64,000 bases of DNA from Asaia bogorensis. GTDB taxonomy: Bacteria > Pseudomonadota > Alphaproteobacteria > Acetobacterales > Acetobacteraceae. This document shows positions 15,870-38,872 of the stretch, piece by piece. Every line of letters begins with the position of its first letter. Within the stretch, counting starts at the first letter, position 1. The DNA is taken from positions 1-64,000 of the forward strand of contig CAMBMS010000011.1 in assembly GCA_945868845.1 (NCBI GenBank), in the 5' to 3' direction. Under the pieces are notes generated by a model that ran no database searches, was not told where the DNA came from, and worked only from the letters and a program-made list of their open reading frames with translations. The position numbers and the translations under genes are program-made.

Positions 15870-16868
15870 CTACGTGCGCAGGAACCCGACCAGGCGCTCG
15901 GCTTCCGCGACGATGGGATCGGCGATGGCGGCGGCCCGGTGGGCACCGTCGCGTAGTACCGCATCGATCGCCGCAGGATCAGCCAGCAATCTGCGGGTCT
16001 CCTCTGCGATCGGCGCCAGCTTCGCCACCATCAGATCGGCCAGTACCTGCTTGAAGGCGCCAAAGCCCTTACCCCCGTGCTCGGCCAGCACGCCCTGATG
16101 GTCGGTCCCCGCGAGAGCGGCATAGATCCCCACCAGATTGCGCGCCTCCGCTCGCCCCTCCAAACCGGGCAGTTCCGAGGGTAACGGGTTAGGATCCGTC
16201 TTCGCCCGACGGATCTTCAGGGCGATGGTGTCGGCATCGTCGTTCAGATTGATCCGGCTCTGCTCCGACGGGTCGGATTTCGACATTTTCTTCGTCCCGT
16301 CTCGCAAGCTCATCACCCGCGCCCCCGGGCCTAGGATCAGCGGCTCGATATTGGGGAAGAAATTCACCCCGTAATCGTGGTTAAATTTTTGCGCGATGTC
16401 GTTGGCGAGTTCCAAATGCTGCTTCTGGTCGTCCCCCACCGGCACGCGGGTCGCGTGATAGGCATGGATGTCCGCGGCCATCAGGTTCGGATAGACATAG
16501 AGACCCGTGGACGCGGCCTCCCGGTCCTTACCGGCCTTGTCCTTGAACTGCGTCATCCGGTTCAGCCAGCCCAAGCGGGCCACACAATTGAAGACCCAGG
16601 CCAGCTGTGCGTGAGCGCGCACCTGCGATTGCAGGAACAGAATATGCTTACGCGCATCCACCCCGCAGGCCAGCAGAACCGCCGCCATCTCCCGCGTTTG
16701 CTGCGCCAGCTCCGCCGGATTCTGCCAGACCGTGATGGCGTGCAAATCGACCACGCACCAAATGCATTCATGAGTAACCTGCAAATCCACCCAATTGCGG
16801 ATCGCGCCCAGGTAATTGCCGAGCGTGGGAATGCCTGAAGGCTGGATGCCAGAAAAAATGCGCTGCAT
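15870..16868 (-). CDS. trpS: Tryptophanyl-tRNA synthetase
   Basis: This class-I synthetase charges tRNA-Trp. The ATG at 16868 gives 332 residues starting [20 protein letters not shown], which contains the HIGH-equivalent TLGN. Further upstream in-frame codons do not fit the family. The catalytic loop KMSKS is seen in [12 protein letters not shown] (about 195). LDLHAIT-type (VVDLHAIT) and MTQFKDKAG blocks are typical of bacterial TrpRS. Length is normal. No leader peptide or T-box-like structure was evident upstream. Confidence 0.96.
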
Positions 16869-17020
16869 GGGAACCCGGTATGATTGAAGCGTGCTGTCAT
16901 TCCGCCGAACCACGCGCGCGGTCAAGTGCCTACGCCGGGGGATAAGTGGGAAGCAATCACGATCGGGAGCTCTGCCCCTGAACTTCGCCAAGGCCAGGGT
17001 CCCTGGAACCGGTCCGTTTG

Positions 17021-17097
17021 GGCAGAAGGAAGCAGGAGCCTATCAAGGCTGTACAACGACCGTACAACGGCCGTGTGGGCTCCTGCTTCCTTCTGCC
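17021..17097. repeat. Perfect 20-bp inverted repeat with a repeated core
   Basis: GGCAGAAGGAAGCAGGAGCC (17021-17040) is exactly complementary to 17078-17097. The 37-base loop contains two near-identical units, GTACAACGACC and GTACAACGGCC (17051-17072). Transcribed from either strand this would fold into a long stable hairpin. It lies between trpS and the TcuA-like gene, both leftward. It could be a terminator, a small non-autonomous element or an integration site. There is no T-run after either arm. Confidence 0.8.
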
Positions 17098-17111
17098 TGC
17101 ATGAATAGCTC

Positions 17112-17156
17112 TAAGGGGCCTCACCCCTTGGCGAGTCCAGGGCAGAGCCCTGGCCT
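17112..17156. repeat. GC-rich intergenic palindromes
   Basis: Two nested pairings are visible: AAGGGG with CCCCTT (17113-17130) and CCAGGGC with GCCCTGG (17137-17153, around an AGA core). The same general pattern (G-run, short core, C-run, then CCTT) recurs in other intergenic gaps of the window. It sits directly downstream of the TcuA-like gene and may serve as its terminator. Confidence 0.5.
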
Positions 17157-17169
17157 TGCTTTCTTCCAC

Positions 17170-18654
17170 CTATCCCCGAGCGTAAATCCCCGCGGCGCCG
17201 CCCGAAAGCCGTCCGAAGACAGAGCCTGACATCAGGCCCGATCCACCCAGATAGTTACCATAGAAGATGCCCCCGACCAGTTCTCCAGCGGCATAAAGGC
17301 CAGGGATAGTTTTTTCCGTGATATCCTGCACCTCCCCCTTGGTGTTGATGCGCAGGCCGCCGAAGGTGAAGGTAATACCGCAGGTAACGACGAAGCCGGA
17401 GTAAGGCGGCTCGTTGATCGGAAGCGCCCAGTTGGATTTCGGTGGCATAATGCCGTCGGTGTGCACGCCATCCAGGATGGAGGGGTTGTATTCGCCTGGC
17501 CGACAGGCTGCGTTGAATTCGGCCACTGTCTTCGCGAGGCCCACCGGGTTGATATCCAGTTGCCGGGCCAGTTCCGCTAGCGTGTTGGCGGTGGCTTTGG
17601 TCACCTGACGGATGCGGTACTCATCGCGTACCATGGCGATAGTCTTATTGTCGAAGATCTGAATTGCCGTGCGCGATGGCTGCTTCATCACCTCACGGCC
17701 GTATTTGGCATAGGTGTGGTTGCGAATATCAGCGCCCTCGTCGACAAAACGCTCGCCATTTAAGTTAACAATAATGCCGATCGGATAGGAATGCTTCTGG
17801 AAATTATCCAGTACTACCCGGTCGCCATAGGGCGGTGCAGAGATATCCCACTGCACTGCATGGCACGTGGACCAGCCGCCGAAGGGCTGTGCGCCGATAT
17901 CGAGTGCCGCGCGGATACCATCGCCGGTGTTGTGCCGTGTGCCGCGCACACGGCAGAGCTCCCAACCCGGGCCGAGATAGCGCACGCGCATTTCCGGATT
18001 AGCTTCAAAGCCGCCGCAGGCAAGCACTACCGATTTGGCGTAGATATCGGCATAGCCATCCGGGCCTTTCACATGTACCCCAGTGACATTGCCTTTTTGG
18101 TCCTGCAGCAGGCGGCGTAGGCCCGTTTCATACTGGACCTTGATGCCGAGACGGGCGCATTCCTTCAGGTGAAAATCCACCAGCCCGAAGCCGCCGCCGA
18201 CGGCCTCGATATTTACTCCACCATAGAAATGGTGCTTGCCGTTCAGTACATAAGATTGCCTACCAAACATTGGGATGAAACGTACGCCATGGTTTTTCAT
18301 CCAGCGCATCGTGTCGCGCGAATTGCCGATCAGGATATTAGCGAGTTCCTCGCAGGTTTCGCCTTCCGTGACGCGCATCAGATCGCTCATGAAGGTATCG
18401 AAGCGTTGCACCGGCAGCACGGTCTGATCGGCTTCGCTTTCCGAAAGATCAGCGAGCACGTCCTGGCGCAGATCGTCTAGCCCGTCATGTACGAAGCGAA
18501 AACCACCGGCGGTGAACAGTGAGTTGCCACCCCGCTCCTCATAATCAGCCTTTTCTAGCACTAGCACGCGGGCGCCTCGTTCGTGCGCGGAAATGGCGGC
18601 GCAAAGCGCGGCATTCCCGGCGCCGACGACAATGACATCGAATTTTTCGGACAT
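17170..18654 (-). CDS. FAD-dependent dehydrogenase, tricarballylate dehydrogenase (TcuA) type
   Basis: The 494-residue flavoprotein belongs to the fumarate reductase/succinate dehydrogenase flavoprotein superfamily. It has the dinucleotide loop VVGAGNAALCAAISAHERGA (about 7-26), LEKADYEERGGNSLFTAGG that fits around FAD, a middle capping domain, and the C-terminal FAD block GLYAAGELVGGIFYGNYLGG with SGLMSGSVFGR. GITFTFGGLRI matches the substrate-side region of TcuA, which oxidises tricarballylate to cis-aconitate. No tcuB or tcuC partner is nearby. Instead it leads into two AtuA-type genes upstream on the same strand, so the substrate is probably another polycarboxylate or branched acid. Confidence 0.8.
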   Translation of the reverse strand: MSEKFDVIVVGAGNAALCAAISAHERGARVLVLEKADYEERGGNSLFTAGGFRFVHDGLDDLRQDVLADLSESEADQTVLPVQRFDTFMSDLMRVTEGETCEELANILIGNSRDTMRWMKNHGVRFIPMFGRQSYVLNGKHHFYGGVNIEAVGGGFGLVDFHLKECARLGIKVQYETGLRRLLQDQKGNVTGVHVKGPDGYADIYAKSVVLACGGFEANPEMRVRYLGPGWELCRVRGTRHNTGDGIRAALDIGAQPFGGWSTCHAVQWDISAPPYGDRVVLDNFQKHSYPIGIIVNLNGERFVDEGADIRNHTYAKYGREVMKQPSRTAIQIFDNKTIAMVRDEYRIRQVTKATANTLAELARQLDINPVGLAKTVAEFNAACRPGEYNPSILDGVHTDGIMPPKSNWALPINEPPYSGFVVTCGITFTFGGLRINTKGEVQDITEKTIPGLYAAGELVGGIFYGNYLGGSGLMSGSVFGRLSGGAAGIYARG

Positions 18655-38785: not shown

Positions 38786-38834
38786 TGGGGTGGGTCGCAA
38801 GAAAGGCCACGCGGCTTTGCCTCCTGCACCCCCA

Positions 38835-38854
38835 CCAAGGGCGGAGCCCCTTGG
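38835..38854. repeat. GC-rich intergenic palindrome
   Basis: CCAAGGG (38835-38841) pairs with CCCTTGG (38848-38854) around a CGGAGC core, in the gap between the convergent MOSC and argB genes. It matches the general form of other palindromes in this window and may serve as terminator for both genes. Confidence 0.5.
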
Positions 38855-38872
38855 CCTTCCTTTACGCCTCCC

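Follow-up and report, generated by a model that had tools for sequence, protein, structure and literature searches.

The closest described relatives of the element reported here are the REP, BIME, and REPIN sequences, which the cited part of PMC3116915 characterizes as dispersed, extragenic, palindromic, multicopy inverted doublets with a variable folding spacer; compensatory changes in the spacers of REPINs are also reported in that part. In the Acetobacteraceae, CGTC repeats are missing according to the relevant passage of PMC3733652, and putative REPs identified with RepRanger in Lichenicola cladoniae, a member of the same family, comprise many extragenic palindromes (PMC12306157, in the excerpt cited here). 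Template switching at quasipalindromes, as outlined in the cited portions of PMC8794818 and PMC8604942, predicts homogenization of the arms and inversion of the spacer. We describe a composite palindrome and the repeat family to which it belongs, of which no description was found in the open-access literature searched. The window is the whole stretch of DNA analyzed (64 kb).

Structure and position of the palindrome

A sequence-only reading of the window had pointed out a perfect 20-bp inverted repeat with two copies of GTACAACGRCC in its loop, and had stated that no gene or known terminator explains it. The arms are indeed exact and enclose a loop of 37 bases (Table 1). They form the sole perfect inverted repeat in the 64 kb with arms of ≥12 bp and a loop of ≤100 bases, and none of 100 dinucleotide-preserving shuffles of the window gave a pair with arms of ≥20 bp (mean, 0; shuffle means for arms of ≥12, ≥14, and ≥16 bp, 0.81, 0.08, and 0.02, respectively). 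RNA folding of positions 16990 to 17130 yielded −79.3 kcal/mol (z = −6.8). The two GTACAACGRCC copies (GTACAACGACC and GTACAACGGCC in the loop) form an 11-bp tandem duplication in the hairpin tip, which corresponds to a 10-column insertion relative to 26 other copies (alignment A2).

Diverged symmetry, not noted in the sequence-only reading, extends outward of the hairpin, first as an exact 11-bp pair (16989 to 16999 and 17148 to 17158) and then as the pair of outermost arms. The hairpin is the center of a composite palindrome of ~250 bases (about 16931 to 17184), in which a half unit (two small hairpins), a central hairpin module (94 bp; 83 bp without the duplication), and an inverted half unit follow each other. 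The statement on terminators needs qualification, because the outer half has a terminator-like hairpin and tail. Two open reading frames cross the hairpin (16884 to 17108 and 16891 to 17229), with no evidence of coding.

The element is located behind the stop codon of a gene for an FAD-dependent oxidoreductase, and both neighboring genes are on the minus strand. The trpS gene on the opposite flank has an orthologue in G008 (85% identical); the closest TrpS among named genomes (87% identical) is from an uncultured member of the Acetobacteraceae. Positions 1 to 149 of the window are identical to positions 1 to 149 of contig C40, and since these shared 149 bp contain a half unit, the assembly evidently broke at the repeat.

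Table 1. Features of the palindrome, its neighboring genes, and further half units in the window
Feature	Position	Strand	Remarks
Further half unit of the family, contig end	83..143	+	R1 model
trpS, tryptophanyl-tRNA synthetase	15870..16877	-	PF00579, E = 4.4e-65; opposite flank of element
Left outermost arm	16931..16949	.	Specific to this locus; nearly an inverted copy of the FAD gene 3' end; local flank score, 13; 84% complementary to 17166-17184 over 19 nt
Left half unit (dispersed two-hairpin repeat, diverged copy)	16951..17011	-	R1, E = 1.1e-6 (whole genome)
Central hairpin module (payload)	17012..17105	+	R3 (window excluded from model), E = 1.5e-9 at 17012-17106
Left 20-bp arm	17021..17040	+	
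11-bp tandem duplication GTACAACGRCC, hairpin tip	17051..17072	+	
Right 20-bp arm	17078..17097	+	
Right half unit, top-scoring copy of the genome	17106..17165	+	R1, E = 2.8e-18; itself among the 35 sequences used to build R1
Terminator-like hairpin, then CCTTGCTTTC	17137..17153	+	Tail conserved in 64 halves
Right outermost arm	17166..17184	.	Overlaps the FAD gene at its final codons and stop
FAD-dependent oxidoreductase gene	17170..18654	-	PF00890, E = 1.1e-43; stop 5 bp from element
Further half unit of the family, flanked by convergent genes	38795..38859	-	R1, E = 5.3e-4

A repeat family in Acetobacteraceae genomes

The sequence-only reading had proposed a search for further copies of the 77-base unit. 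The exact unit is present as a single copy in its own genome, but the element is multicopy by profile, with 20 central hairpins and at least 67 outer halves; the single exact copy is therefore misleading as an argument against mobility. The stretch from 16955 to 17172 matches many places in relatives, almost always via its ends rather than its center and often as inverted pairs. The end unit is a two-hairpin structure of ~60 bp (alignment A1, 35 copies), from which a covariance model of the half unit (R1) was built. With this model, the own genome contains at least 67 halves at E ≤ 0.01 and at least 80 at E ≤ 1, all copy numbers per genome being lower bounds, since no more than 137 to 150 candidates were scored in each. 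R1 matches were obtained in 17 of 24 Acetobacteraceae genomes (own included) and in 1 of 16 genomes outside the family (E = 0.0078). A model of the central module that includes the window (R2) detected 20 separate sites in the own genome, 19 of which abut a half. Across the 40 genomes searched, R2 matched only 4 (G000, G001, G021, and, with one weak match, G005) and none outside the Acetobacteraceae. The model R3, made from 26 other copies with the window left out, recovered the window hairpin as its sole match on the two strands of the 64 kb.

Paired halves are separated either by a short gap (~8 to 50 bp) or by a hairpin-folding module, typically of 81 to 102 bp; modules of 132 to 186 bp occur in some G015 copies, and centers overall span about 75 to 190 bp. 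We infer from their appearance that the short-gap forms have lost the module by deletion at short repeats. At two orthologous sites in the two species of the genus, the element occupies the same position with a different center: that of L139/L257 looks inverted and of another subtype, and that of L256/L283 is of another subtype. Given that full-length copies of ~240 bp, mostly 78 to 88% alike, occur at unrelated places in G005, the units spread or convert each other.

Several further forms were observed. Central hairpins with very long arms are present in G015 (L058 323-447, L148, and L152), the first with 60 perfect base pairs around GATCG. Foreign inserts of a few hundred base pairs, one AT-rich and one with an open reading frame of ~100 codons, lie in the central-hairpin tip of L248 (2118-2652) and L249 (2118-2654). 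Just outside some halves of the own genome (e.g., C6:58585, C1:160915, and C5:41920), there is an additional shared motif, roughly GGTCATGCCCC...TTGGTATTAG, as if it were one more nested module. Two loci, L245 (G001:C59) and L267 (G000:C34), share 4,194 bp at 99.7% identity, while other aligned stretches are ~66 to 90% identical; this near-identity reflects either a recent transfer or a mixed-up assembly.

The layout is best read as that of a REP/REPIN-like mosaic palindrome family for which no RAYT was detected. The repeats are palindromic, high in copy number, and often arranged as inverted doublets, and none of the 50 own-genome elements lies within a called gene. No GTAG/CGTC tag was noticed at the stem foot in the A1 half consensus. 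The RAYT/Y1 HUH transposase (PF01797) was found in 0 of 15 family genomes searched, a set that included the own genome and G005 and from which the copy-rich G015, G019, and G021 were left out; the same search was positive in 5 of 14 control genomes. A RAYT-driven REP was rejected on the basis of this absence from the 15 genomes.

Of the three sequence-only guesses (RNA element, MITE-like relic, and recombination site), that of a dispersed repeat came closest. A classical MITE is not supported: the family could not be tied to any transposase, and no direct repeats were seen in the flanks of 48 elements (score, 4.35 versus 4.39 between loci), which gives no sign of a target-site duplication. An interval of 1193 bp between two halves on contig C9, considered as a parent transposon, contains an ordinary gene. 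Mapping of two G001 stretches (10.1 and 7.5 kb) on the own genome revealed no clean empty site; one element adjoins a stretch of ~1.1 kb for which the own genome has no counterpart, and the matches flanking this stretch are separated there by 28 bp. The single observation that bears on the suggested recombination site comes from the G001 element L250 (2033-2242), the flanks of which find their matches on two contigs of the own genome; this synteny break is possibly a rearrangement point.

A nonautonomous REPIN or MITE mobilized by a transposase of the HUH or DDE type, with the stop-codon position representing the survivors of selection, would suit the high copy number, the similarity of the G005 copies, and the REPIN-like layout, including the compensatory changes known from REPINs (cited part of PMC3116915). 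We regard this explanation as rather doubtful in view of the PF01797 result for the 15 genomes, the flanks devoid of direct repeats, and a locus-specific symmetry that continues beyond the repeat.

Stem covariation and symmetric flanks

Two-sided changes in a stem are usually taken as proof of a working RNA, and selection on RNA pairing should favor G-U. All 15 stem pairs have two-sided changes. The cells with such changes numbered 89 versus 27.4 in shuffles (score, 0.640 versus 0.196; slid versions, 0.13 to 0.19), and 93.0% of the cells were paired, compared with 68.5% in shuffled and 47 to 55% in slid versions. The arms are 88% matched inside one copy, while left arms are 59% identical across copies. 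With regard to the suggested RNA element, the covariation of the stem is real, but equal numbers of G-U and A-C mismatches speak against an RNA strand being under selection. Among the non-Watson-Crick stem positions of 23 tandem elements in transcript orientation, 160 were G-U, 160 were A-C, and 245 were other combinations, a count that presumes read-through of these elements from the upstream gene; the aligned central stem had 19 G-U and 17 A-C. A payload-oriented count (G-U, 41; A-C, 71) was not used because the arms were loosely aligned and consensus positions were counted repeatedly.

A selected RNA (a hairpin of the 3'-UTR or small RNA type whose role is to protect the ends of mRNAs or to bind a protein and which is maintained by compensatory mutation in the transcript) would be in keeping with the very strong folding, the strong covariation, and the position immediately behind stop codons. 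The equal counts along the transcript make it unlikely, as does a model that fits the two strands alike (44.4 and 44.3 bits); furthermore, nothing in Rfam scored above the gathering threshold, the best matches being miRNA models far below it (e.g., 36.5 versus 100 bits).

Symmetry is not confined to the repeat. In the 25 bp outside 48 paired elements, the inverted score was 9.56, compared with 5.44 between loci, and the sequence differed from locus to locus. A score of ≥9 was reached by 31 of the 48 elements (1.9 expected), and the symmetry was down to the background level at 60 bp. The right arm of the window element enters the FAD gene at its last codons, which the left arm mirrors. When the flanks of convergent pairs were anchored at the stop codons, the symmetry was weaker than when anchored at the element edges: scores of ≥8 were found for 8 of 19 pairs with both halves (4.1 expected), 7 of 21 with one half (3.0 expected), and 2 of 14 with no half (0.8 expected). 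The corresponding numbers for the coding sides were 1 of 19, 2 of 21, and 4 of 14 (2.2, 1.1, and 1.5 expected). Together, the equality of G-U and A-C and the symmetric, locus-specific flanks suggest homogenization of the arms at the DNA level rather than RNA selection.

According to this proposal, the arms would stay matched mainly through self-correction of the DNA, by template switching within the palindrome and by exchange between copies. Such correction would explain the flipped or swapped centers and the symmetric flanks that end at coding sequence. Template switching is inferred from these patterns, and gene conversion between copies or selection at the cruciform level would leave similar traces; symmetric flanks could likewise arise from the insertion of a mobile unit into the loop of a preexisting palindrome. 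We tentatively raise the less probable idea that these are palindromes, not transposons, that grow and renew in place, with the repeat family as the seed and coding constraint as the limit. If so, template switching would copy an arm together with adjacent unique sequence across, as far as the stop codons, and whole intergenic regions would become locus-specific mirror images. With strong stem covariation, a mismatch spectrum in which G-U is not favored over A-C, and symmetry that reaches into unique flanks, this natural family is a test case for deciding, in bacteria, between selection on RNA and the copying of arms at the DNA level.

Terminator-like ends and comparison with known systems

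Gene context rests on calls by a simple, purpose-written codon-usage gene finder, so that gene ends are approximate. The 50 elements of the own genome comprised 32 in convergent and 17 in tandem positions, 0 in divergent positions, 0 in genes, and 1 undetermined, while 8,294 of 44,766 bp of intergenic DNA were divergent. A stop codon was present within 50 bp of 44 of 49 elements (median distance, 15 bp). The 28 elements of G001 were convergent (12), tandem (14), divergent (1), or overlapped by an open reading frame in an insert inside the element (1), and all 12 in G021 were tandem. The outward end of the half carries a conserved CCTTnCTTYC (in 64 halves, two of its positions are T at frequencies of 0.97 and 0.89). 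A loose terminator test was passed by 19 of 64 halves outward and by 4 of 64 inward, compared with 1.6% of random sequences; the tail falls short of a true U run.

Judging from these sequence patterns, we propose that the element acts as a double-ended terminator or barrier at 3' ends, the arms of which are matched largely by DNA-level copying (probability, roughly 0.6). The outward-facing end hairpins with their CCTTnCTTYC tail would form a weak, double-ended terminator or 3'-end barrier, such that a transcript of either strand would meet several hairpins and a pyrimidine-rich tail ahead of the neighboring gene. The element may accordingly constitute a terminator system in a bacterial family that reportedly lacks CGTC repeats and in which RAYT was not found here.

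Two other explanations fall well behind. A leader that regulates the tryptophanyl-tRNA synthetase is highly improbable: the element does lie ~75 bp upstream of trpS, but none of the 41 other trpS loci examined has an element near the gene, and the same element stands behind many unrelated genes, a distribution that contradicts this role. A chance hairpin, for which only the single occurrence of the exact 77-mer speaks, is refuted by the shuffles and the independent R3 match.

The element resembles bidirectional Rho-independent terminators in lying between convergent genes and in having a GC-rich hairpin followed by a pyrimidine tail; it differs from them in its weak U tract, its several nested hairpins, its length of 200 to 250 bp, and its membership in a repeat family. 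The arm homogenization and spacer inversion described for quasipalindrome correction are both suggested in this family, whereas the cited portions of PMC8794818 and PMC8604942 treat that correction as a mutation process and do not place it in a dispersed bacterial repeat family. The putative REPs of Lichenicola cladoniae are short palindromes (≤32 nt; loops of ≤11), and the excerpt of PMC12306157 describes neither a composite element, nor a gene context, nor a family. With REP, BIME, and REPIN sequences, the element has in common all of the features listed at the outset, and it is set apart from them by the lack of a detected RAYT, a modular center of ~75 to 190 bp, and locus-specific symmetric flanks.
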